From Bacteroidota bacterium (GTDB taxonomy: Bacteria > Bacteroidota > Bacteroidia > M30B66), in contig JAIXUS010000025.1 in the NCBI GenBank assembly GCA_027483445.1, positions 1-64,000 of the forward strand: DNA of 64,000 bases, in the 5' to 3' direction. Under the pieces are notes generated by a model. That model worked only from the letters and a program-made list of their open reading frames with translations. It did no database searches and was not told where the DNA came from. A program made the position numbers and the translations under genes. This document shows positions 37,546-54,173 of this stretch, piece by piece. Within the stretch, counting starts at the first letter, position 1, and each line of letters starts with the position of its first letter.

Positions 37546-38031
37546 ATTAAACTTGAGCGTTTAGAGTTGGCACACAGCTCAACCGAAGCATTGAGCCTGG
37601 CAGAGCTATACACGCAACAGAGGCGAACAGTAAGGTGTGGGCCCGCAAACCACACCTCAAGGTACAAGTGTGCGAACCCACCCCCAAAATGGAATGATTT
37701 TCGAACCACAAGGGCCCCCACAAGTCGATGCTCGCCTGAAGCAGACACACGCATAAGACTGATAATCAAATCAATTAATTGAAGCAGCCGCTTAAGGCTG
37801 TATTTGTATTTTCAAAAAACAGACTTAACTTGCGCATTTCAATCCAAAACGGAAGTATAAGTAAACAAACATGCGGATATATACTAGTTATGGGCAACTC
37901 TATGAGACGACCAAGAAACGGACGGGAACCACCAGACGACTGACTTTAAAAGCTCAGTTGACAAGCCAATGGACAACTATAAAACCATTGCACATTGACA
38001 ATTTTCAAACTTTAAAATCAAATAAATAAAA

Positions 38032-38724: not shown

Positions 38725-38855
38725 CCATAACAGCGCATAATCGCCAGTTGAGTTTTGGGGGAAAATTTGAGCTCTCGGTCCTTTGGAAATTTCGTGGTGA
38801 ACTGATAACTTTCGGTCAACAAACCCAACCGGCGTTTATGCGCGAACCGTTACCG
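38725..38855 (+). repeat. attC-like site 1 (131 bp)
   Basis: Left box CCATAAC, then AGCGCATAA; right end TTTATGCGCGAACC then GTTACCG. The inner CGCATAA/TTATGCG arms pair, with unequal unpaired spacers (AG and CGAACC) between outer and inner boxes. The centre (GGGGAAAATTTGAGCTC... GGAAATTTCGTGGTGAACTG) is shared by nine sites. Confidence 0.85.
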
Positions 38856-38899
38856 GTCATGCTAAAAGACGACAGTGCAACAATAAAACAACAGAGTAA

Positions 38900-39550
38900 A
38901 TGAACAAACAAGCCAACGCTTCAGCAAAATCAAAAGAGCTGCAACCCATCGCACAAGCCGAAACAGTTGCAGCACATTTGCTTTTGCCCCAATGCACTTG
39001 GCAGCAGCGAAAAGTCACTTTTACTAGATTAATCCTGTTTGTTTATATATTTCTTTCAACAACTTTTTCAACTTTTGCCCAGACAAACCCACGACATGTT
39101 AAGGTGAGCGGTTATTATCGTATAGACGGAACTTATGTTCAACCATATTTCAGGACTGCACCTAACTCAACAAACAGAGACAACTTTTCGACAAAAGGAA
39201 ATACAAACCCCTATACTGGTAAACCTGGGTGGATAGAGCCTGACAGTAAATACAATACATTTTATTACAGCACTTACACCTACCCTACTAATAAAAGCCC
39301 AAGTAGTTATACAACAACTTCTACGGCAAAAACCAATCTTCCAATACAATTCAAGAACCGGACATACATTGAGGATGAATATGGAGGTTATTCATCCTAT
39401 TTGACAGTAAAAGATGAACGGACTTATAATATTTACGATATGAAAGACGAACTCATCTTATATCTTGTTATCAATCATCGTGGCGACTGGCGAATTTTTG
39501 ACAGCAATTGGATTTATATTAAAACTATATTTGTAGAAACAGTAAAATGA
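38900..39550 (+). CDS. Exported protein of unknown function (cassette 2, gene 1)
   Basis: 216 residues as read from ATG 38900. A hydrophobic stretch (RLILFVYIFLSTTFSTFAQ) at about residues 43-61 looks like a signal peptide, so the real start may lie downstream of the listed ATG. The next part carries VKVSGYYRIDGTYVQPYFRTAPN then DNFSTKGNTNPYTGKPG, a pattern seen in small exported proteins of several phyla, then Ser/Thr/Tyr-rich sequence. It overlaps the next gene by four bases (ATGA). No function can be assigned. Confidence 0.6.
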   Translation: MNKQANASAKSKELQPIAQAETVAAHLLLPQCTWQQRKVTFTRLILFVYIFLSTTFSTFAQTNPRHVKVSGYYRIDGTYVQPYFRTAPNSTNRDNFSTKGNTNPYTGKPGWIEPDSKYNTFYYSTYTYPTNKSPSSYTTTSTAKTNLPIQFKNRTYIEDEYGGYSSYLTVKDERTYNIYDMKDELILYLVINHRGDWRIFDSNWIYIKTIFVETVK

Positions 39551-40638
39551 GAATAGGTATAATCATCATATTGACTTTTTGTTTGAGCAAGCTAACGCTT
39601 GCCCAAACAACTTATGAAAGCCCCTTAGGCTTTACACTAAGCTTTGACAAAACTTGGAAACGATTACCTAAAGAGGTTTTACAACAACGAATGAAGGATG
39701 TAAAAGACTTTTTAGAGTATAGAAAGGATATTCAATTTGATGCTTGTTATCAGAAAATTGGAAATGCTGATATGGATTACCCTTATATACTTTTTAAAAA
39801 TGTTTATGCGACCACATCAAATGAAGATGAAATTAAAAAGGTTCAGGAATACTTCACTGATAAACCACAATTCGAAAAAGTAATTGAAAACCTTGTTAAT
39901 GGAAAATTTGGAGTAGAGCTTAAAGTAGGAAAGAACTACTATGATGCTAAGAATAAAATATTAATATTCACCTTTGACTTTGGAATAAGCATCAAGGGAA
40001 ATTTAGTCGGAATGTTTGCTTTCTACTTTGGCAAAAATGCTAGCTTAATGACCTATTGCTACTCTTATAAAGACGAATTTAAGTATGACCAAAAAGAATT
40101 TCTAGACATCATCTATTCCATAATAGATAAAGGAATGGTGAACACAATGGATAGCTATGTTTCAAAACATGACCTTGCTGTAAAATATTACAATGATGGC
40201 AAAATGCAATCAGAAGCAGGAAATCGTGAAGCAGCTATAAGTCTTTATACAAAAGCTATTGAAAACTATCCCGTGGAAGATAGTTATATGAAGTCCGAAG
40301 CATATTATAACAGAGGATTAAACAAACGTTATCTAAATAATTATAAAGGAGCAATTGCGGATTATACAGAAGCGATTAAACTCCGCCCCGATTATTATAA
40401 GGCATACAACAACAGAGGATTTGCCAAACTTCAAATTGAAGACTACGAAGGGGCAATTATAGATTTTAGCCAAACAATCAAGTATGACAACTACAATACT
40501 GAATTTACCAATATGGCACTAGGTAATAGAGGTATTGCAAAATTGTCACTTGGGCAAGAAGGTTGTCCTGACTTGAAAAAGGCTATCGATTTGGGAAATA
40601 AGAATGTGATACAAGCCTACAATGAACTTTGTAAATAA
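39547..40638 (+). CDS. TPR protein with signal peptide (cassette 2, gene 2)
   Basis: 363 residues. A signal peptide (MRIGIIIILTFCLSKLTLAQ) leads to an N-terminal domain of about 190 residues with no recognised family. At least four TPR units follow: AISLYTKAIENYPVEDSYM, SEAYYNRGLNKRYLNNYKGAIADYTEAIKLRPDYYKAYNNRGFAKLQ and EDYEGAIIDFSQTIKYDNYN. TPRs bind partner proteins, so this may be a periplasmic adaptor for the downstream vWA/PP2C/kinase genes. It follows gene 1 with a four-base overlap. Confidence 0.75.
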   Translation: MRIGIIIILTFCLSKLTLAQTTYESPLGFTLSFDKTWKRLPKEVLQQRMKDVKDFLEYRKDIQFDACYQKIGNADMDYPYILFKNVYATTSNEDEIKKVQEYFTDKPQFEKVIENLVNGKFGVELKVGKNYYDAKNKILIFTFDFGISIKGNLVGMFAFYFGKNASLMTYCYSYKDEFKYDQKEFLDIIYSIIDKGMVNTMDSYVSKHDLAVKYYNDGKMQSEAGNREAAISLYTKAIENYPVEDSYMKSEAYYNRGLNKRYLNNYKGAIADYTEAIKLRPDYYKAYNNRGFAKLQIEDYEGAIIDFSQTIKYDNYNTEFTNMALGNRGIAKLSLGQEGCPDLKKAIDLGNKNVIQAYNELCK

Positions 40639-40677
40639 ATCAAAATCAAAAATTACTAACAATTAAAATCAAACAAC

Positions 40678-41145
40678 ATGTTTCAAAATCCATTTTCATT
40701 TGACGGACGTATCAGAAGAACTGAATACGGATTAAGCTTTATCATCTATGTGGTGGTAGCAGTAATTGTAAACGCCATTATAGAAAGTAGCCGTGATGCT
40801 GCAATTCTTGGATTGGCTTATATCCCTATGCTTTGGTTTCTTTGGGCACAAGGAGCTAAAAGATGCCATGATGTTGGCAATAGTGGTTGGTGGCAACTTA
40901 TACCATTCTATGTTTTTTTGTTATTATTCCAAGACGGACAACCCGGACCAAACCAATACGGTGAAAACCCAAAAGGCATTCAATCAATTGGTGGGCAAAC
41001 CTTCCAAGGTGGACAAAATACAGGAACATCAGGCGGTTATCAAGGAGGTTACAGCGGAGGACACAATAACCCAACGACAAATTATTCATCAACTGAAAAC
41101 CCATCTAACTCTGGCGGTTACAAGGACGGTGACTTATACAAATAA
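40678..41145 (+). CDS. DUF805 membrane protein (cassette 2, gene 3)
   Basis: 155 residues. The DUF805 pattern is clear: NPFSFDGRIRRTEYGLSFIIYVVVAVIVNAI, LWFLWAQGAKRCHDVGNSGWWQLIPFYVFLLLFQDG and GPNQYGENPKG. Three or four membrane segments are followed by a Gly/Gln/Asn-rich tail (GGQNTGTSGGYQGGYSGG). DUF805 proteins are small inner-membrane proteins of unknown function that often occur in phage or mobile contexts. It lies 11 bases before the vWA gene. Confidence 0.88.
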   Translation: MFQNPFSFDGRIRRTEYGLSFIIYVVVAVIVNAIIESSRDAAILGLAYIPMLWFLWAQGAKRCHDVGNSGWWQLIPFYVFLLLFQDGQPGPNQYGENPKGIQSIGGQTFQGGQNTGTSGGYQGGYSGGHNNPTTNYSSTENPSNSGGYKDGDLYK

Positions 41146-41156
41146 AATCAATCAAA

Positions 41157-41963
41157 ATGCACGACATTAGAAATCTTACAATCAGCAGCACAAACCCCTG
41201 CTTACTTGTTTACTTAATTGACCAAAGTGGTTCAATGAATGAAAAATTCGGAAATGCTTCACATACTAAAGCGGTTGAAGTTACTAATGCAATCAACGAC
41301 ATTTTATATGAAGTTGGTTTACGTTGCATTGGAAGCGGGGGCGAACTCAAAAACCGATTTGAGATTGCGATTATAGGGTATGGTAAACAAGAAAATGTTG
41401 TTCAATCAGGATGGGAAGGACAACTATCAGGAAAATGGGTAGTCTCAATTAAAAATATTTTTGAGTTTCCACTTGGACAAGAAAATGACAAACCTATTTG
41501 GATTAAGCCTTATTCTGTGAGTAATACACCAATGACAAAGGCTTTTGAAAATGCTAAACGCCTTTGTAATGACTGGATAAACTGGGGAAACCATAGAGAC
41601 TGCCATCCGCCCATCATTATTAACATAACTGACGGTGAAGCTACAGATGCTGGAAGCAATTTTAATGCTTTAAAAAGTCAAGTAGAGCAAATAAAAAGCT
41701 TGAGAACAAACTACGGTTCTGTCAGCATTTTAAATATCCATATTTCGACAAGAGCGGGCGACAAATTGTTGTTTCCTAGCGAAGTGAATACTGGTGACAA
41801 ATTTGAAAGACTTCTATTTGAAATGTCCACGCCACTAGATGAAAACATGATAAGAATTGCCCAACAAAAAGGGTATGACATTCGGCATAATGCAAAGGGT
41901 TATGTTTTCAATGGTAACGCTACAGACTTAATAAACTTTTTAAATATCGGAACTCCACAATAA
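41157..41963 (+). CDS. von Willebrand A protein, TerY-like (cassette 2, gene 4)
   Basis: 268 residues. A vWA domain spans most of the protein, with the MIDAS motif in VYLIDQSGSMNEKFG, a later threonine segment (TPMTKAFENAKRLC) and the third metal loop in IIINITDGEATDAGSN. TerY-like vWA proteins form a three-gene module with a PP2C phosphatase and a protein kinase (TerY-P triads). The next two genes are exactly those, and the ATG of the phosphatase overlaps this stop (TAATG). The module's role in signalling is inferred from the family. Confidence 0.88.
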   Translation: MHDIRNLTISSTNPCLLVYLIDQSGSMNEKFGNASHTKAVEVTNAINDILYEVGLRCIGSGGELKNRFEIAIIGYGKQENVVQSGWEGQLSGKWVVSIKNIFEFPLGQENDKPIWIKPYSVSNTPMTKAFENAKRLCNDWINWGNHRDCHPPIIINITDGEATDAGSNFNALKSQVEQIKSLRTNYGSVSILNIHISTRAGDKLLFPSEVNTGDKFERLLFEMSTPLDENMIRIAQQKGYDIRHNAKGYVFNGNATDLINFLNIGTPQ

Positions 41964-43273
41964 TGGGCATTACAGTTTTACAACTTCATAAAAGATCGTC
42001 TTATGAATTTAAGCACATACAAGACAAGTGTGCCATAAATTCAGAAAGTAAAACATTTGCCCTAGCAGATGGAACAACTCAGAGTTTCAATTCAGAAATT
42101 TGGGCAGAGATAATTACGAAAGGATTTGTAACAAATCCAATATTCAATGCAAAAGAGCTTATAACTTCATTTCTAAAGCAAGTAGATGAATACAAAAATG
42201 TAAAATTTGAATTTAGCACTAATCCAGCCAAAGCATCATTAGAAAAAGCCAAACAAAATAAAGGAGGTACAGCCACCTTTATCGGTTTGCAACTAAAACT
42301 AAATGAGCAAAAAATTAAAGTAATATCTTGTGGTGACACTAATTTGTTTTTACTGAATTCGGATAATAAAATCAATCCTTTTCCATTTGAGGATATAGAT
42401 AGTCTGGATGCAAACAATTTTTTCATCAATACCGAACATCTTTTACAAAATAAAATTGATGAAACATTTTTTAAGCAAAGAACCCTTGAATGTTCTCCAA
42501 CTGATATTCTGATTTTGGCGACAGACGCTCTTAGTAGGCTTATTTTGAAAATGCCATCAACGATAACAGAGTTGTTAGGAATTAAAACATTTGAGCAATT
42601 GCATGAATTCTGTTTAAAATATTGGGACAGTAAAGAGCTTCAGGAAGACGATATTTCGGCTATCATTATTCCACTTAATAAAATGGCTGATTTAAAACTA
42701 ATTCATCCGCCAAAAGACTTTTCTTTTCCAAAAGAAAAGGAAGAAGAATTTATCCCAACATCATTACATCAAAAAAATCAAAACAATTATACAGATATGG
42801 AAATGAACGAAATCCGAAACCAATTTAATGGGTTTGCACAAGACTTACATCAGGTCAAAAAAAAACTCAAACTGCACGAAATGCTACTGATGTTAGCAAT
42901 TAGCTTTTTGATGGTAAACATACTAGTAATGTATTTCTGGTTTCCAACGAGTTCAAAAGATGAAATTTCAAATGCGAAAGGGAAAACAGAAAATGTAATT
43001 ATTGAAAAGTATGAAAATACTATTAGTAATTTGGAATCAGAAATCCAAACACTTAAAAGTAAAATCACTGATTTAACTCAACCAAAGGAAGAGCCCCAAA
43101 AAGAAAAGATTGAGCCGACCAAAACAACTAAAACCATATCCAAGGAAGAAGCGAAGAAGAGACAGGAAGTGTTGATTAAAGCTGGATATAAAGTAACCGC
43201 AGATGGCATATGGGGAGCACAATCTGAAAAAAACTGGAATGAATATCTACAAAAGAAAAAAGATAAGAAGTAG
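41963..43273 (+). CDS. PP2C-like phosphatase with membrane anchor and peptidoglycan-binding-like tail (cassette 2, gene 5)
   Basis: 436 residues. The N-terminal about 240 residues form a PP2C-like domain: TFALADGTTQSF (metal Asp), GGTATFIGLQL, KVISCGDTNLFLL, ILATDALSRL and a late Asp pair in QEDDISAIIIP. A membrane helix (LLMLAISFLMVNILVMYFWFP, about 307-327) and a coiled coil (EKYENTISNLESEIQTLKSKI) follow. The last 45 residues look like a PG_binding_1 domain (KAGYKVTADGIWGAQSEKNW). This predicts a cytoplasmic phosphatase tethered to the wall. Three bases separate it from the kinase gene. Confidence 0.78.
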   Translation: MGITVLQLHKRSSYEFKHIQDKCAINSESKTFALADGTTQSFNSEIWAEIITKGFVTNPIFNAKELITSFLKQVDEYKNVKFEFSTNPAKASLEKAKQNKGGTATFIGLQLKLNEQKIKVISCGDTNLFLLNSDNKINPFPFEDIDSLDANNFFINTEHLLQNKIDETFFKQRTLECSPTDILILATDALSRLILKMPSTITELLGIKTFEQLHEFCLKYWDSKELQEDDISAIIIPLNKMADLKLIHPPKDFSFPKEKEEEFIPTSLHQKNQNNYTDMEMNEIRNQFNGFAQDLHQVKKKLKLHEMLLMLAISFLMVNILVMYFWFPTSSKDEISNAKGKTENVIIEKYENTISNLESEIQTLKSKITDLTQPKEEPQKEKIEPTKTTKTISKEEAKKRQEVLIKAGYKVTADGIWGAQSEKNWNEYLQKKKDKK

Positions 43274-43275
43274 TA

Positions 43276-44481
43276 ATGGCTAAGAATTATCCAACCATTG
43301 GTGAATACAACCAACTTATACAAAAAAAAGGCGGTAGTGCTTTTAGGTCTTTGAATGGTATAAATCTAATTCCATCAAGAACATCACCAATTAAGGTTTA
43401 CTTATTTGGTTCAGGTGCATTTGCAGCAGTCTTTAAAGGTTCGCTGAATGATAAAACATATGCTATTAGATGTTTTTTGTCAGCTGAAGACGAAACAATA
43501 AATCGTTACAAAGCAATATGCGGTTATTTAAAAAACATTTATTCATCGTGGAAAACTGAATGTGAATTTATAGATAATGAAATATCCCTTAATGGGATTT
43601 CATTTCCAATTCTAAAAATGGAATGGATGAACGGACTACTTATTAACCAATTTGTTTCAAATCATTTAAGTGAAAACAGAGTATTGGCAGAATTGCAAGA
43701 AAAATTGGTTTCAGTATCCGAAGACTTGGAAAGAAACAAAATTGGTCATGGCGATATTCAATGTGGAAATATCATTATTTCAGGGACATTTGACGATTTT
43801 CAGGTTAAATTAATTGACTACGATGGGATGTATGTTCCCGATTTAGCTTATAAGAAATCTATTGAGAAAGGCAGAAGTGAATTTCAGCATCCTAAAAGAA
43901 CACTAAATAATTTTAGCCCCGAAATGGACAGATTTTCGTTTTGGGTTATGATAACGGCATTAGAAGCTCTCAAACATGATAAAACTCTTTGGCGTGAAGT
44001 AATGCAAGGTGGCTTCAACACACTTGACAATTTCCTTTTCACAATTCAGGACTTTCTAAATCCTAATCAATCCAAACTTTTTAATAAACTTTACAATTTA
44101 AATTCAACGGCATTGAATTACTATTTGGATAAATTGAAATATTTCTGCAATAGTGAATATTATATTATTACTAAACCAGTTGTGTATGGACAAAATACAA
44201 GTCCGACAAGTTTCATTCCAACTGAACATCAAAAATACCTACCAAACATTTCAACAAGTCAAACGATTGACAACAATGTATCAAGTAATAAGTATAAAAT
44301 TGTTACTAACAACAGTTCTGCTTCGGTTTTGACATCAACATTTCAAAGACTTGGTTCGACGCCTTTAGAACTTGACAAACAAACCTATGAAGGAAAATTG
44401 ATTTTAGTTTCAAACGGCAGGGAGACAAAACGCATTACACTTAACTCAAATCAAAACTTAATAGAAATAAAATTTGACTAA
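43276..44481 (+). CDS. Protein kinase of the TerY-P module (cassette 2, gene 6)
   Basis: 401 residues. Kinase features: glycine loop FGSGAFAAVFKGS, strand 3 YAIRCFL with Arg where the usual Lys sits, a catalytic loop GHGDIQCGNIII and metal loop KLIDYDGMYVPDL (DYD in place of DFG). HGD-Q-xN plus DYDGM is characteristic of kinases paired with TerY-like vWA proteins, and Arg at the strand-3 site occurs among them, so activity is not excluded. The C-terminal 150 residues are Ser/Thr/Asn-rich without a recognised domain. It ends the six-gene operon. Confidence 0.82.
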   Translation: MAKNYPTIGEYNQLIQKKGGSAFRSLNGINLIPSRTSPIKVYLFGSGAFAAVFKGSLNDKTYAIRCFLSAEDETINRYKAICGYLKNIYSSWKTECEFIDNEISLNGISFPILKMEWMNGLLINQFVSNHLSENRVLAELQEKLVSVSEDLERNKIGHGDIQCGNIIISGTFDDFQVKLIDYDGMYVPDLAYKKSIEKGRSEFQHPKRTLNNFSPEMDRFSFWVMITALEALKHDKTLWREVMQGGFNTLDNFLFTIQDFLNPNQSKLFNKLYNLNSTALNYYLDKLKYFCNSEYYIITKPVVYGQNTSPTSFIPTEHQKYLPNISTSQTIDNNVSSNKYKIVTNNSSASVLTSTFQRLGSTPLELDKQTYEGKLILVSNGRETKRITLNSNQNLIEIKFD

Positions 44482-44588
44482 TAGCAAACGCATTTGGTGG
44501 CACATTTGCAAAAGAGCCACCAAGCCAACGCACGACAAAAACAGACACTAAACGACTTACAAACAGACGACAATAACAGAAGGGCAGC

Positions 44589-44720
44589 ACACAACAGCGC
44601 ATAATCGCCAGTTGGGTTTTTGGGAGAAAATTTGAGCTCGCGGTTCTTTGGAAATTTCGTGGTGAACTGATAACTTTCGGTCACCAAACCCAACCGGCGT
44701 TTATGCGCGAACCGTTAGCT
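44589..44720 (+). repeat. attC-like site 2 (132 bp)
   Basis: Left box ACACAAC, AGCGCATAATCGCC; right TTTATGCGCGAACC then GTTAGCT. GGTGAAC...GGTCACC in the centre can form an extra hairpin arm. The left box does not match the start of cassette 2; the right box starts cassette 3. Confidence 0.85.
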
Positions 44721-46016: not shown

Positions 46017-46047
46017 TTGACACTAATACCATGAATTGGTATATTTG
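46017..46047 (+). promoter_or_regulatory. Promoter of the ParDE-like cassette
   Basis: TTG at 46017, 20-base spacer, TATATTTG at 46040-46047. Consensus Bacteroidota promoter just inside cassette 4 and 15 bases before the ATG. Confidence 0.72.
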
Positions 46048-46062
46048 CTCAATACAATTGTT

Positions 46063-46317
46063 ATGGCAAAGAACACATCAATCCTTCTTGGAGATTACTT
46101 TGACAAGTTTATAAACAGTCAGGTACAGTCAGGTCGTTATTCGTCTGCATCTGAAGTTATAAGAGCTGCATTGCGAATGTTTGAAAAAGAAGAAAACAAG
46201 AAAAAGGACCTAATCAAAGAATTAAAAATCGGAGAAAAATCTGGTTTTAATGAAGACTTTGATAAAAGTGAATTTATGAAAAGCCTTCACACGAAATACT
46301 TAAAGAATGAAATTTAA
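46063..46317 (+). CDS. ParD-like antitoxin, CopG/RHH type (cassette 4)
   Basis: 84 residues from ATG 46063; the earlier TTG overlaps the promoter. MAKNTSILLGDYFDKFINSQ starts a ribbon-helix-helix DNA-binding domain, with SGRYSSASEVIRAALRMFE in the helix-turn region. The charged C-terminal tail (KSGFNEDFDKSEFMKSLHTKY) is the toxin-binding part of ParD antitoxins. It represses its own operon and neutralises the ParE-like toxin, whose start overlaps this gene by 11 bases. Confidence 0.93.
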   Translation: MAKNTSILLGDYFDKFINSQVQSGRYSSASEVIRAALRMFEKEENKKKDLIKELKIGEKSGFNEDFDKSEFMKSLHTKYLKNEI

Positions 46318-46606
46318 ATTAAGTAGAAAGGCAGAAGAAGATCTAGAAGGCATTTGGCTTTACACTTCAGAAATTTGGCCGAAAAAACAAGCAGACAGAT
46401 ACTTGAGTCTTATTTTTGATGAGATTGAATTTATAACAGCAAACCCAAAGACTGGTCAAGATTTTGATTCCATTAGAAAGAACTATCGCTACTCAAAGGT
46501 AAAGTCACATTTAATCTTCTATAAACATAAAAAAAGTGAAGATATAACTGAAGTGATTAGAATTCTTCATGAAAGAATGGATTTAGAGAATAGAATAAAT
46601 AAATAA
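46307..46606 (+). CDS. ParE/RelE-superfamily toxin (cassette 4)
   Basis: 99 residues. MKFKLSRKAEEDLEGIWLYTSEIWPKKQADRYL and EFITANPKTGQDFDSIRKNYRYSKVKSHLIFYKHK match ParE-type toxins, ending VIRILHERMDLENRI. ParE toxins poison DNA gyrase; other members cleave mRNA. The upstream antitoxin gene overlaps it. Toxin-antitoxin pairs are common in integron arrays, where they are thought to stabilise cassettes. Confidence 0.92.
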   Translation: MKFKLSRKAEEDLEGIWLYTSEIWPKKQADRYLSLIFDEIEFITANPKTGQDFDSIRKNYRYSKVKSHLIFYKHKKSEDITEVIRILHERMDLENRINK

Positions 46607-46616
46607 AATTGGCAGC

Positions 46617-46737
46617 GCAGAACAGCGCATAATCTCCAGTTGGGTTATTGGGGGAAAATTTGAGCTCTCATTCCTTTGGAAATTTCGACGTGAACTGATA
46701 ACCGACCCAAGCGGGATTTCTTCGCGAACCGTGAGCG
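46617..46737 (+). repeat. attC-like site 4 (121 bp)
   Basis: Left box GCAGAAC preceded by AGC; the start of cassette 4 (GTTGTGCGCATC) is complementary in 9 of 12 positions. Right half is more degenerate (ATTTCTTCGCGAACC then GTGAGCG) and shorter than the other sites. Confidence 0.8.
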
Positions 46738-46774
46738 GTAATGCATCAAAAACAAAGATATCAAGAAAATTATT

Positions 46775-46781
46775 TATCTTG
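46775..46781 (+). promoter_or_regulatory. Likely -7 element of the MNT/HEPN cassette
   Basis: TATCTTG, a near match to TAnnTTTG, ends 5 bases before the ATG at 46787, implying a very short or absent leader. Confidence 0.45.
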
Positions 46782-46786
46782 CAGAC

Positions 46787-47077
46787 ATGTTGACCAGAGC
46801 AGACATAGAAAACAAACTACGGCAAATGAAGCCAGAACTTGCTGCCAAGTTTCATGTTAGTCGGATTGGTTATTTTGGGTCATTTGCGAATGATAAACAA
46901 AACGAAAATAGTGACCTAGATATACTTGTTGAATTTTCAGAGCCAATCGGCTGGGAGTTCTTTACACTCGAACGTTTTCTGGAACAGTCATTTGGAATCC
47001 CGATTGACCTTGTAACAAAGAATGCGCTTAAAGAAAGAATAAAAGATTCCATTCTAAACCAAGTCAACTACGTTTGA
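46787..47077 (+). CDS. mntA: MntA-type nucleotidyltransferase antitoxin (cassette 5)
   Basis: 96 residues. The minimal nucleotidyltransferase motif GSx10DxD is intact: Gly31-Ser32 in GYFGSFAND and Asp43/Asp45 in NSDLDILVEF. EFFTLERFLEQSFGIPIDLVTKNAL follows. MntA antitoxins add AMP groups to the HepT toxin and so silence it. The stop codon overlaps the HepT-like start. Confidence 0.92.
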   Translation: MLTRADIENKLRQMKPELAAKFHVSRIGYFGSFANDKQNENSDLDILVEFSEPIGWEFFTLERFLEQSFGIPIDLVTKNALKERIKDSILNQVNYV

Positions 47078-47430
47078 AACCGAGCAAAAGAGATCCAATT
47101 CTATATTTAGAAGACATGGAGTTGTCTATGACAAGAGTTCAGGAGTATATTCAGGGGCTTGACTTTCAACATTTCAAGTGGGACTATAAGACTGTAGACG
47201 CAGTAATTCGAAATTTCGAAATTATTGGTGAAGCGAGTAAAAATTTGCCACGACAATTAAAAGAAAAATATTCAAATATTCCGTGGGAAGAAATGTACCG
47301 ATTGAGAAATAGAATATCACACGAATACTTTGGAATTGATTATAAAATTCTTTGGGATATTGCGACCAAACATTTGCCTCAAAACCATACCGACATTCTA
47401 AAGGTGTTAGAAAACGAACGTCGATCGTGA
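47074..47430 (+). CDS. hepT: HepT-type HEPN toxin (cassette 5)
   Basis: 118 residues reading from a TTG at 47074, which gives the usual N terminus (KRDPILYLEDMELSMTRVQEYIQGLD). The HEPN RNase motif RX4HXY is Arg78...His83-Glu-Tyr85 (RNRISHEYFGID). HEPN toxins cleave RNA; the motif tyrosine is the site modified by MntA in studied pairs. Together with the previous gene it is a complete MntA/HepT module. Confidence 0.92.
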   Translation: MKPSKRDPILYLEDMELSMTRVQEYIQGLDFQHFKWDYKTVDAVIRNFEIIGEASKNLPRQLKEKYSNIPWEEMYRLRNRISHEYFGIDYKILWDIATKHLPQNHTDILKVLENERRS

Positions 47431-49100: not shown

Positions 49101-51395
49101 ATGAAATCAAAAGCAATTTTATTATTCTTCTTAACAATATGCTTAACCACAAAAGCCCAAAATTTCGAGTGGGTCCAATCATTCGGTGGTACTTCTAATG
49201 ACCTTGGTAATTCTATTGCGGTGGATGCCTCAGGGAATGTTTATACCACCGGTTACTTTAGTGGCACTGTTGATTTCGATCCGGGTGCCGGAACAGCTAA
49301 CCTTTCATCAGTGGGACAGTTTGATGTGTTCGTTCAAAAATTGGATGCTTCAGGCAATTATCAATGGGCAAGGTCATTTGGCAGCAGCTTAAACGATGTT
49401 GGTCAATCCGTCGCAGTAGATGCTTCAGGCAATGTATATACAACTGGCAGATTCCGTGGAACCGTAGATTTCGATCCTGGAGCGGGTACAGCTAATTTCA
49501 CCTCGGCGGGCCAAGATGATATCTTCGTTCAAAAATTAGACGCTTCCGGTAACTACCTCTGGGCAAAACGCTTTGGTGGGAGCTCCGGTGAAAACGGAAA
49601 TTTCATCACCCTCGATGCTTTAGGACATGTTTACACCACCGGAGCTTTTCAAGGAACCGTTGATTTCGATCCTGGAGTTGCAACATTTACCCTCACATCC
49701 ATAGCAGGAAGCTTCGACGGGTTTGTTCAAAAATTAGACGCTTCAGGGAATTTCGTGTGGGCAAGGTCGTTGGGAGGTAATTCAGATGATGATGGACGAT
49801 CCATCAGGGTAAATGCTTCGGGTGATATTTACACCACAGGAATTTTTAGAGAGACTGTAGATTTCGATCCCGGAGCAGGAACGGCTAACCTTACTTCATC
49901 AGGACAAGAGGATATTTACGTTCAAAAATTAGATGCTTCCGGCAATTTTCTTTGGGCGAGGTCTTTTGGCAACGCCTCAATGGATATCTCCAGTTCTATT
50001 GAGGTGGATGCTTTAGGGAATGTATTTATCACAGGATTCTTCAGAGGAACCGTTGATTTCGATCCAAATGCCGGAATAGCTAACCTTACCTCTGCAGGCC
50101 TCGATGATGCCTTTATTCAAAAACTAGACGCCACCGGTAATTTTATTTGGGCGAGGTCTTTTGGTGGTAGCGGCGCTGACCAAGGATTATCTGTAGCAAG
50201 TGATGCCTCAGGAAATGTATATACCATGGGTGTTTTTGAAGGAACAGTAGATTTCGATCCAGGCGCTGGAATCGCTAACCTTTTATCGGGGGGCTTCGAT
50301 ATTTTTGTGCAGAAACTAGACGCAGCTGGCAACTTTCAATGGGCGAATTCTTTCGGTGCGGTTGGAGCCTCCATCGCGGTAGATGATATCGACAATGTTT
50401 TCACCACGGGATATTTTATCGGTACTGTAGATTTCGATTCAGAGGCAGGAGTTGCTAATCTAAGCTCAGCAGGATCAACAGATGTTTTTGTGAAAAAGAT
50501 GAGCCAATGCGTATCGCCTCCGGCCCCAACAACATCGACTCAGTCTGCCATTTGTGCAGGAAACACGGCTACAATCACTCCCAGCGCAGGCGGAACGAAT
50601 TATCGCTTCTATTCCGAGGCAACGGGAGGCAATCCCTTGGCCGGAGGCAACGGTGTAGCCAGCTTCACTACCCCTGCATTGAGCGCCACCACTACCTTTT
50701 ATGTGGCCTCGGTAAGTGCAGCAGGCTGTGAAAGCGATACCCGAACCGCGGTAACCGTTGTGGTAAATTCGGGCAGTGTCGGATTGCAAACAGAAACCGC
50801 CTGCGGCAGCTATACCTGGCCGGCAAATGCCTCGACCTACAACACAAGTGGTTTTTATACGACTACGCTCACCAACGCTGCCGGCTGTGATTCTGTGATT
50901 ACCTTAAACTTGACAATTAATTCAGTTTCAAACATTGAAACCACCACCACAGACTTAACGATAACTGCAAATAACGCAGGTGCTACTTATCAATGGTTGG
51001 ATTGCAACAATGGCATTGTTCCAATTGCCGGAGAAACCAATCAATCTTTCACAGCTACAGTGAGCGGTAGTTATGCCGTAGAGCTCATCGAAGACGGGTG
51101 CGTAGATACATCTGCATGTGTAACTGTGCTTGTTACCGGTATTACGGAAAAGCCGTTTAGCGAATCAATTCGTGTTTACCCTAATCCTGCAGTTCAAGAA
51201 TTTACGATTGACTTAGGGACTATACATGAAACTGCTCGAGTTAGCATTAAGGATGTAATGGGAAGAATAGTTCATACGTCCAACTACGCATTCACATCGA
51301 CCATCCAAGTTTCCTTGAACGAATCCGCAGGACTTTATTTTATTGAAATTGCTTCAGGTGAAAAAAGAGCAATGTTGAAAGTGATAAATCAATAA
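49101..51395 (+). CDS. Secreted SBBP-repeat protein with T9SS sorting domain (cassette 7)
   Basis: 764 residues. After a signal peptide (MKSKAILLFFLTICLTTKAQ), about seven beta-propeller-type repeats of some 60 residues recur, each with FGG...AVDASGNVYTTG, GTVDFDPGAGTANL and FVQKLDASGN. An Ig-like region follows (CAGNTATITPSAGGTNYRF), then a second repeat (CGSYTWPANASTYNTSG), and a Por/T9SS C-terminal domain (RVYPNPAVQEFTIDLG). It is a surface or secreted protein, probably adhesive. It fills a 2.5-kb cassette, large for a single-gene cassette, and shows that secreted proteins travel with these sites. Confidence 0.88.
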   Translation: MKSKAILLFFLTICLTTKAQNFEWVQSFGGTSNDLGNSIAVDASGNVYTTGYFSGTVDFDPGAGTANLSSVGQFDVFVQKLDASGNYQWARSFGSSLNDVGQSVAVDASGNVYTTGRFRGTVDFDPGAGTANFTSAGQDDIFVQKLDASGNYLWAKRFGGSSGENGNFITLDALGHVYTTGAFQGTVDFDPGVATFTLTSIAGSFDGFVQKLDASGNFVWARSLGGNSDDDGRSIRVNASGDIYTTGIFRETVDFDPGAGTANLTSSGQEDIYVQKLDASGNFLWARSFGNASMDISSSIEVDALGNVFITGFFRGTVDFDPNAGIANLTSAGLDDAFIQKLDATGNFIWARSFGGSGADQGLSVASDASGNVYTMGVFEGTVDFDPGAGIANLLSGGFDIFVQKLDAAGNFQWANSFGAVGASIAVDDIDNVFTTGYFIGTVDFDSEAGVANLSSAGSTDVFVKKMSQCVSPPAPTTSTQSAICAGNTATITPSAGGTNYRFYSEATGGNPLAGGNGVASFTTPALSATTTFYVASVSAAGCESDTRTAVTVVVNSGSVGLQTETACGSYTWPANASTYNTSGFYTTTLTNAAGCDSVITLNLTINSVSNIETTTTDLTITANNAGATYQWLDCNNGIVPIAGETNQSFTATVSGSYAVELIEDGCVDTSACVTVLVTGITEKPFSESIRVYPNPAVQEFTIDLGTIHETARVSIKDVMGRIVHTSNYAFTSTIQVSLNESAGLYFIEIASGEKRAMLKVINQ

Positions 51396-51624: not shown

Positions 51625-51632
51625 CATTGAAA

Positions 51633-53087
51633 ATGGACGAAAATTTAAAATACTATTTAGAAAATACAGTTGTTTCCAAATCTGCTATCGAAAGTAGGTT
51701 GACGCATCCTATTACCAAACTTAGATACCCGACAAGATTAGTTTACGTCCTTTTGAAAAAATATGCCAATGACTTTTTAAAATCAGGTTCAGAACCTCGT
51801 TTTGTTAGTTTAGCAGGGCTTCGGGGAGTGGGTAAAACAACGCTTTTATGGCAAACAGCTAATTATATTTACCTCAATCATCACAAAGACATTTACTTCT
51901 TCAATGTAAATACTTTGAAGAACTTAGGCATAGATTTACATATTGCCTTAGAAGAATTTCAAAGACATATTATTAAAAAACGATTTAATGAGTTGTCAGA
52001 ACCAATCACACTTCTATTTGATGAAGTTCACGATGATGATAATTGGAGCAAGACATTGAAAATCCTTTATGATGAAGCAAGAACTGCTTTTATCCTCTGC
52101 ACAGGTTCATCTGCTCTACTTCTTAACCAAACTGCTGACTTGGCAAGAAGAATGAGAATTGAAAAAATATACCCATTTAAGTTTATAGAATTTGTTGCTG
52201 CAAAAACTTATATGGAAAACAATGGAGGGATGGTATATCCTGAACGTGGACTATCAAACGGATTAAAAGAAGCTCTTTTTTATAGTGAAACGCCAGAAGA
52301 AGCTTTCAGGAAGATTAAAGTATATGAGAACAATGTAAACATATATTTCAACAAAATAAATTCAATAAAGGGTTTACAATTGAAAGACCTTTGGCAGGGT
52401 TACATCAGCTATCAAAATATCCCAAACTTCTTGTTTTTTAAAGACAAATACACAATAAATGACAGCATTCTTGACTTATTTAAGCGAGTTATCTTAGAAG
52501 ACATTCCTAAACTTAAACCAACATTTGCTGATTTTACAAAAATCGAAAGACTAATTCTAAGACTTGCAGGTTCGGATGAAATAAACCCCGAAAAATTAGC
52601 AGGAGTAATCGGAGTAAAGCAAAATGACATAAACGAACTCATAGACATACTAGCGAAAGCAGAGCTATTAAATGTTCTACTTCCTTTTGGTGGTTTAGAC
52701 ACTAAAATAGTTAAGAATAAAAAAGCATTTTTTATGTCGCCTTCCCTTAGGAGAGCCTTACTATCAAATCTATACGGACAAAATTTGCCTGACCAATTTA
52801 GAAGCAAATTAATTGAAGACATAATTGTAATGTATCTAAGACGAGTTCTTGCTGATGGAGTTATTTCATTTTTATCAGGTAATGATGAAGTGAACCCCGA
52901 CTTCGTTATTGAAACAAGAGACAAGCCAATTCTTCTTGAAATAGGAACTAGTAAAACCTCTTTAAGACAGTTGACAAAATCAAATGTAAAATATCGTTAT
53001 GGAATATTGATTTCAAATGGAGTTACAGAGCCAACATTAAAAGGTGATTGTATTCAAATTCCATTTAGTTGGTTTTTACTATTGTGA
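51633..53087 (+). CDS. AAA-type ATP-binding protein (cassette 8)
   Basis: ATG 51633 is preferred; a TTG six bases earlier is possible. The 484-residue protein has Walker A GLRGVGKTTLLWQ near residue 63 and Walker B LLFDEVHDDDNW. The sensor-like block FILCTGSSALLLNQTADLARRMRIEKIYPFKFIEF is typical of AAA_14/DUF4143-related ATPases. The C-terminal half has winged-helix character (KLAGVIGVKQNDINELIDILAKAELL) and a nuclease-like NPDFVIETRDKPILLEIG stretch. Such ATPases occur in mobile islands, possibly in DNA processing or defence. Function is inferred only. Confidence 0.78.
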   Translation: MDENLKYYLENTVVSKSAIESRLTHPITKLRYPTRLVYVLLKKYANDFLKSGSEPRFVSLAGLRGVGKTTLLWQTANYIYLNHHKDIYFFNVNTLKNLGIDLHIALEEFQRHIIKKRFNELSEPITLLFDEVHDDDNWSKTLKILYDEARTAFILCTGSSALLLNQTADLARRMRIEKIYPFKFIEFVAAKTYMENNGGMVYPERGLSNGLKEALFYSETPEEAFRKIKVYENNVNIYFNKINSIKGLQLKDLWQGYISYQNIPNFLFFKDKYTINDSILDLFKRVILEDIPKLKPTFADFTKIERLILRLAGSDEINPEKLAGVIGVKQNDINELIDILAKAELLNVLLPFGGLDTKIVKNKKAFFMSPSLRRALLSNLYGQNLPDQFRSKLIEDIIVMYLRRVLADGVISFLSGNDEVNPDFVIETRDKPILLEIGTSKTSLRQLTKSNVKYRYGILISNGVTEPTLKGDCIQIPFSWFLLL

Positions 53088-54072: not shown

Positions 54073-54173
54073 TTCATTGGTAAAAGTCGCTAGAAACAAA
54101 AAAACAATTAATTTAGCTGGCGAAAACCGAAAAGCCTTTTTTAACAGAGTAGGAAAAACAAAACAAGAGCAAA

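Follow-up and report, generated by a model that had tools for sequence, protein, structure and literature searches.

A block of six genes between two copies of a repeat on a Bacteroidota contig raises the question of whether a single integron cassette can carry a complete signalling module, and of what such a module would do. Cassettes generally hold one ORF, sometimes two or none (review PMC8618304). Defence genes in integrons are already known (Darracq et al. 2025, Getz et al. 2025 and Kieffer et al. 2025, as cited in PMC12444791), and so is TerY-P. As described in PMC11090510 (after Anantharaman et al. 2012 and Gao et al. 2020), this is a triad of TerY, a PP2C phosphatase and a serine/threonine kinase (STK) whose C-terminus carries an OB fold or zinc ribbon. 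The block was found in a host genome of 4.26 Mb in 87 contigs, on contig C39, of which a stretch of 64,000 nucleotides was analysed (the window).

All six ORFs are on the + strand. Gene 1 (38900-39550, 216 aa as called) has no Pfam family, and gene 2 (39547-40638, 363 aa) is a TPR protein with a signal-peptide-like N-terminus. Gene 3 (40678-41145, 155 aa) is a DUF805 protein (Pfam E 8e-19), a membrane protein by hydropathy. These are followed by gene 4, a TerY-like vWA protein (41157-41963, 268 aa, PADLOC TerY E 4e-53), gene 5, a PP2C phosphatase with a C-terminal membrane anchor (41963-43273, 436 aa, PADLOC E 3e-26), and gene 6, a serine/threonine-type kinase without an OB domain (43276-44481, 401 aa, PADLOC STK_OB E 2e-64). 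The first-pass annotation had described six tightly spaced genes between two sites, and every ORF and both flanking repeats were present. Its domain calls agreed with Pfam for TPR and DUF805 and with PADLOC for TerY, PP2C and STK_OB. The spacing it reported was right for the ATGA overlap of genes 1 and 2, the 11 bases before the vWA gene and the TAATG joining the vWA and PP2C genes; the gap between PP2C and kinase is 2 bases rather than 3, and a 39-base gap precedes the DUF805 gene.

The description of gene 1 as exported is plausible and probably correct, but its hydrophobic stretch does not reach a simple hydropathy cut-off. Its start codon is uncertain because the first ~36 codons overlap a leader common to unrelated cassettes. 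Matches to the gene 1 N-terminus in two other genomes (G091 and G194) were ruled out as homologues, being this shared DNA leader; the true distant relatives of gene 1 are short parts of other proteins. Solved structures gave only chance ubiquitin matches for gene 1 and no useful match for the kinase. Nothing useful was found in viral contigs searched with the TPR protein and TerY, and plasmids searched with the kinase returned distant cyanobacterial matches only.

The flanking sites are two of nine copies that the window holds of a 127-nt repeat, which has 28 matches on ~12 contigs of the genome. The nine attC sites form an array that begins at an attI-like site (37874-37890, + strand). This site matches the 3' end of integrase genes on contig C55 of the same genome and in two further genomes (G397 and G403), with the first cassette following it there. 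In the window the first cassette begins at CGGATANANACTAG|TTA, and its start pairs with its end. The six-gene cassette occupies 38850-44714 (+ strand), 5,865 bases between the crossover points G38849|TT38850 and G44714|TT44715, and has the same start as the copies at two other loci (L025 and L019). Both boundaries fold into hairpins. The downstream attC (44589-44720, + strand) forms a long imperfect hairpin with z of -3.8 and -3.6 on the two strands, matched by 0 of 200 shuffles. The hairpin of the upstream attC (38725-38855, + strand) is less extreme (z -2.0), and 9 of 200 shuffles fold as well.

In its circular form an integron cassette has a start (after G|TT) that pairs with its end. The starts and ends of all nine cassettes were compared, each start being scored against each end. 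The summed score of the cognate pairs was 60, where permutations averaged 36 (P about 1e-5), and when the six-gene cassette was left out the permutation P was 1e-4. Because cognate starts and ends are complementary to this degree, chance was ruled out, and the array is confirmed to consist of integron-type cassettes, with the six-gene unit spanning one of them. The same unit also occurs in L025 and L019, bounded by attC sites of differing types. The claim that a TerY-P-like module is carried as one large multigene cassette was supported, and at six genes in 5.9 kb the cassette is indeed unusually large beside the usual one ORF (PMC8618304).

The attI-like site at 37874 is not accompanied by an integrase on its contig, and the only candidate integrase in the host genome, on C55, scores below the TIGR02249 cut-off, with part of the integron-integrase model missing. 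Since the sites are also scattered over many contigs, the repeats might instead be another dispersed hairpin repeat and the gene set an ordinary genomic island. We consider this extremely improbable, given the cognate pairing of starts and ends, the presence in three genomes of an attI-like site where the integrase gene has its 3' end, and the occurrence of the same cassette beside different site types elsewhere. The C55 candidate (G000:C55:156382-158160; L124:4383-6164; also L174 and L175) is a tyrosine recombinase of 593 aa with an N-terminal extension of ~290 aa, and the attI-like site overlaps its stop codon. Close homologues were found in G397 (91%) and G403 (64%). The genome has three attI-like sites without an integrase (window 37874, G000:C24 about 85132 and G000:C18 about 58355), each followed by attC sites within about a kilobase.

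The window copy differs from the array as a whole at its 3' end. Between its start, GTTACCGGTCATGC, and its own end there is no pairing (score 4), and the downstream attC is not native to the cassette. The L025 and L019 cassettes end in GCACGAACCGGTAAC, which pairs with the start GTTACCGGTCATGC (scores 8 and 9). Judged by these ends, the last ~60 bases and the attC of the window copy have been replaced by those of another cassette, which accounts for its lack of start-end complementarity, and it may no longer be able to excise because the cassette end is not its own. Such a junction event at the 3' end, and the absence of genes 1 and 2 from relatives outside cassettes, would also fit an accidental fusion of at least two cassettes through attC loss, with genes 1 and 2 and the triad brought together by chance. 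As the origin of the six genes this was rejected and is very unlikely: L025 holds all six between matching, paired ends, L018 has them in the same order, L019 and L017 are deletion derivatives of a form with genes 1 or 2, and the fusion in the window lies after the kinase gene, not between genes.

A kinase scan of one genome per species identified ten close Bacteroidota relatives; it relied on exact peptide patterns, by which distant members are underestimated. DUF805, TerY, PP2C and kinase genes were adjacent in that order in nine of the ten, and in the remaining locus (L022) another small membrane protein occupies the place of DUF805. With the window included, 10 of the 11 loci of this Bacteroidota clade have these four genes, which make up its core. 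The first-pass annotation had named a lack of co-occurrence of the first three genes with the triad elsewhere as its refuting condition, and no such lack was observed: DUF805 goes with the triad in those 10 loci. Genes 1 and 2 go with it in a narrower group, the cassette clade of the kinase tree (window, L017, L018, L019 and L025). Both are intact in L018 and L025, at 85-94% identity and with the six-gene order kept. In L025, on chromosome CP058707.1, the six genes again form a cassette; its first bases agree with those of the window copy, and the attC sites on its two sides are of another type. The L019 cassette starts and ends as that of L025 does and has a third site type (assigned by eye); a deletion has spared no more than the start of its gene 1 region. 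In L017 the last codons of gene 2 remain upstream of DUF805. Every member of the cassette clade thus has, or once had, gene 1 or 2. Neither gene was found in the outer members L020-L024 and L026, and genes 1 and 2 are therefore add-ons to the four-gene core.

Because the order recurs as a cassette and remnant-bearing copies exist, comparison of these loci indicates that the six genes moved as a unit, mobile as a whole. The source of L025 is a MAG in which frameshifts and ambiguous bases occur, and L017-L019 are single short contigs. The attC expected after the L018 cassette is interrupted (L018:5905-6030) by sequence resembling the end of a group II intron; this sequence had no Rfam match. Four members of the host's genus and five of its family lack the module, and with 34% GC the segment is more A+T-rich than its flanks (46-48%), from which we conclude that it was acquired. 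Among 395 genomes across the phylum, this variant occurred in the window's own genome only, and 17 others had distant kinases. The six-gene cassette is shared by unrelated Bacteroidota, being intact in different hosts with differing attC types, and lies well outside the usual content of a cassette.

Right after the crossover, cassettes with unrelated genes share a leader of ~140 nt at 82-92% identity (window 38850-38991; L163:1451-1592; L165:436-583; L167; L168; L025:16731). It contains a hairpin (38931-38980, + strand) with a covarying stem, CAAAAGAG...CACATTTG, and an ATG that opens short ORFs in different frames. A terminator-like hairpin (TTGGTGG...CCACCAA) at the 3' end of the six-gene cassette (44494-44523, + strand) is longer in L018 and L025. 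It is a mirror form of the leader hairpin, CACATTTG...CAAAAGAG, and lies near the 3' ends of cassettes, being found also at L018:5813, at L025:3218, 9216, 9679 and 16341, and at L134:2687; none was found in 888 kb of loci outside the clade. An Rfam DUF805b RNA (40.4 bits, above the gathering score) was detected at 54117-54155 of the window; its neighbours are an attC site and a Fib_succ_major gene, and it does not precede a DUF805 gene. It was ruled out as the family of the leader, being a different, smaller hairpin in another cassette.

The likeness of the core to TerY-P is close. The TerY-like vWA, PP2C and STK genes are consecutive, the same three proteins in the same order with strong PADLOC matches, and the invariant residues are kept: the D, S, S, T and D positions of the vWA MIDAS, the metal-binding aspartates of PP2C (by alignment) and the HGD, N and D residues of the kinase. 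The structure model of the phosphatase is confident and its fold matches solved PP2C structures. TerY is the most constrained core gene (dN/dS 0.014-0.036), as expected for a hub with several partners. Gene conversion was rejected as the cause of the TerY identity with L017 (98% aa), in that the dS of TerY resembles the values for the adjacent genes and the low value is confined to dN.

The departures from TerY-P concern the phosphatase, the kinase and the neighbouring genes. PP2C is not of the soluble kind; a membrane helix is predicted at residues 307-325 (42881-42937, + strand, hydropathy 2.41), as in each clade PP2C checked, and was absent from two PP2Cs of other phyla tested. All ten alignable clade PP2Cs extend beyond the phosphatase domain, and 16 PP2Cs chosen from other phyla, with five longer PP2C ORFs from other loci left out of the comparison, stop at ~250 residues. 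The extension ends in a PG_binding_1-like mini-domain (residues 394-436; 43142-43270, + strand), confident in the model and found in most clade members, with a best profile E of 0.013 (in relatives), below the Pfam cut-off; it is missing in L020 and L024. The STK_OB model matches residues 4-295 of the kinase only, ending before the OB region, and neither an OB fold nor a zinc ribbon follows. A Pfam scan found no OB domain on the clade kinases and found it on two kinases of other phyla in the same set. In L020, L021 and L024 the kinase itself contains a membrane helix, and in the kinase tree the Bacteroidota clade is separate with 100/100 support. A tailed membrane protein is moreover an obligatory neighbour, and genes 1 and 2 are added. 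On the evidence of its predicted proteins, the module is a distinct, membrane-tethered variant and not canonical TerY-P.

The tail in question is the C-terminus of the DUF805 protein, GGYSGGHNNP...YKDGDLYK (41044-41142, + strand). Clade DUF805 proteins end in GGYxGGHNN, ~20 residues and DGDLY[KN] or a close variant. The same tail ends the two-helix protein without DUF805 in L022, and L023 has it on a second small membrane protein. L019 shows a membrane helix and the first half of the tail in frame with TerY with no intervening stop; this half would be cytoplasmic, by virtue of the fusion, if TerY is cytoplasmic like its partners. The host genome and 394 more gave no other match, and with the window as the single occurrence in 395 genomes, a general protein motif was ruled out. 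No tail was seen in TerY-P loci of other phyla. We infer that the tail docks to TerY or serves the kinase and phosphatase as their substrate. Docking was not reproduced in a structure model of the natural TerY fusion of L019, as the tail stays disordered. It is a tentative proposal, which we hold to be somewhat doubtful, that the TerY-P core uses the tail as a dedicated docking or phospho-switch module to control interchangeable membrane effectors, with integron cassettes moving the whole six-gene circuit between genera. If so, the plug-in effectors would be DUF805, other small membrane proteins or a membrane helix fused to TerY.

Mobile regions of every kind often have type I restriction and toxin-antitoxin genes as neighbours. 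Two adjacent toxin-antitoxin cassettes lie at 46036-47430 of the window (ParD/ParE, then an MNT-type nucleotidyltransferase with a HepT-like partner), and L020 and L025 have type I restriction genes next to them. Other cassettes of the array encode a 764-aa protein that has a signal-peptide-like start and is made of ~195-nt repeats (49101-51395), and a 486-aa AAA_14/DUF4143 ATPase matching the PADLOC candidate family PDC-S01 (51627-53087, E 9e-27). CoCoNuT systems of types II and III-A embed TerY-P (PMC11090510), and the triad is a likeness to them. McrB/McrC-type, helicase and HEPN genes, however, were not found in the cassette or in the neighbouring cassettes searched, so that its operon has none of the CoCoNuT partners, and the MNT/HEPN toxin-antitoxin pair two cassettes away is a separate cassette. 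The unit resembles the cassettes known to carry defence genes, as an attC-bounded gene unit in an array with toxin-antitoxin cassettes, and differs from them in its six genes in 5.9 kb, its Bacteroidota host and its unusual integrase.

The reading that we favour, with a probability of about 50%, is a membrane-tethered TerY-P variant on one cassette that senses envelope disturbance, with phage defence as its output. The arrangement suggests a putative phospho-relay between envelope and cytoplasm. In it the phosphatase domain would be cytoplasmic, anchored by its one membrane helix, the outer part of PP2C would form a coiled coil with, in most members, the peptidoglycan-binding-like tip, and genes 1 and 2 would act in the envelope. 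The DUF805 protein would lie in the inner membrane with its conserved tail toward the cytoplasm, where TerY, as a metal-dependent vWA adaptor, and the kinase would dock on it. A disturbance of wall or membrane, for example phage adsorption or DNA entry, would shift the balance of kinase and phosphatase at the tail, and this shift would switch the DUF805 protein, leading to a growth stop or a block of infection.

Phage defence is probably the function, by analogy; it is the preferred output because TerY-P-like modules have been reported as stand-alone anti-phage systems (PMC11090510), toxin-antitoxin cassettes lie next door and restriction genes lie near relatives. The same architecture could possibly serve envelope or metal stress instead, which would make the cassette an adaptive one against cell-wall damage or metal exposure. 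The wall-facing PP2C tip, the putatively exported products of genes 1 and 2 and DUF805 all point to the envelope, and the earliest links made for TerY-P triads were to tellurite resistance and metal sensing (PMC11090510). This is the main rival reading, and we judge it less likely, as TerY-P-like modules are validated phage defences (PMC11090510), the neighbouring cassettes are toxin-antitoxin pairs and restriction genes stand beside two of the relatives.

The six-gene unit shows that an integron cassette can hold a complete signalling operon for several proteins, well beyond the usual one or two genes, and it does so in Bacteroidota, a phylum whose integrons are little studied. It also makes the output route of TerY-P testable, through a short tail that occurs on interchangeable membrane proteins and is in one case half-fused to TerY. 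This tail is a candidate substrate or docking site in TerY-P output.
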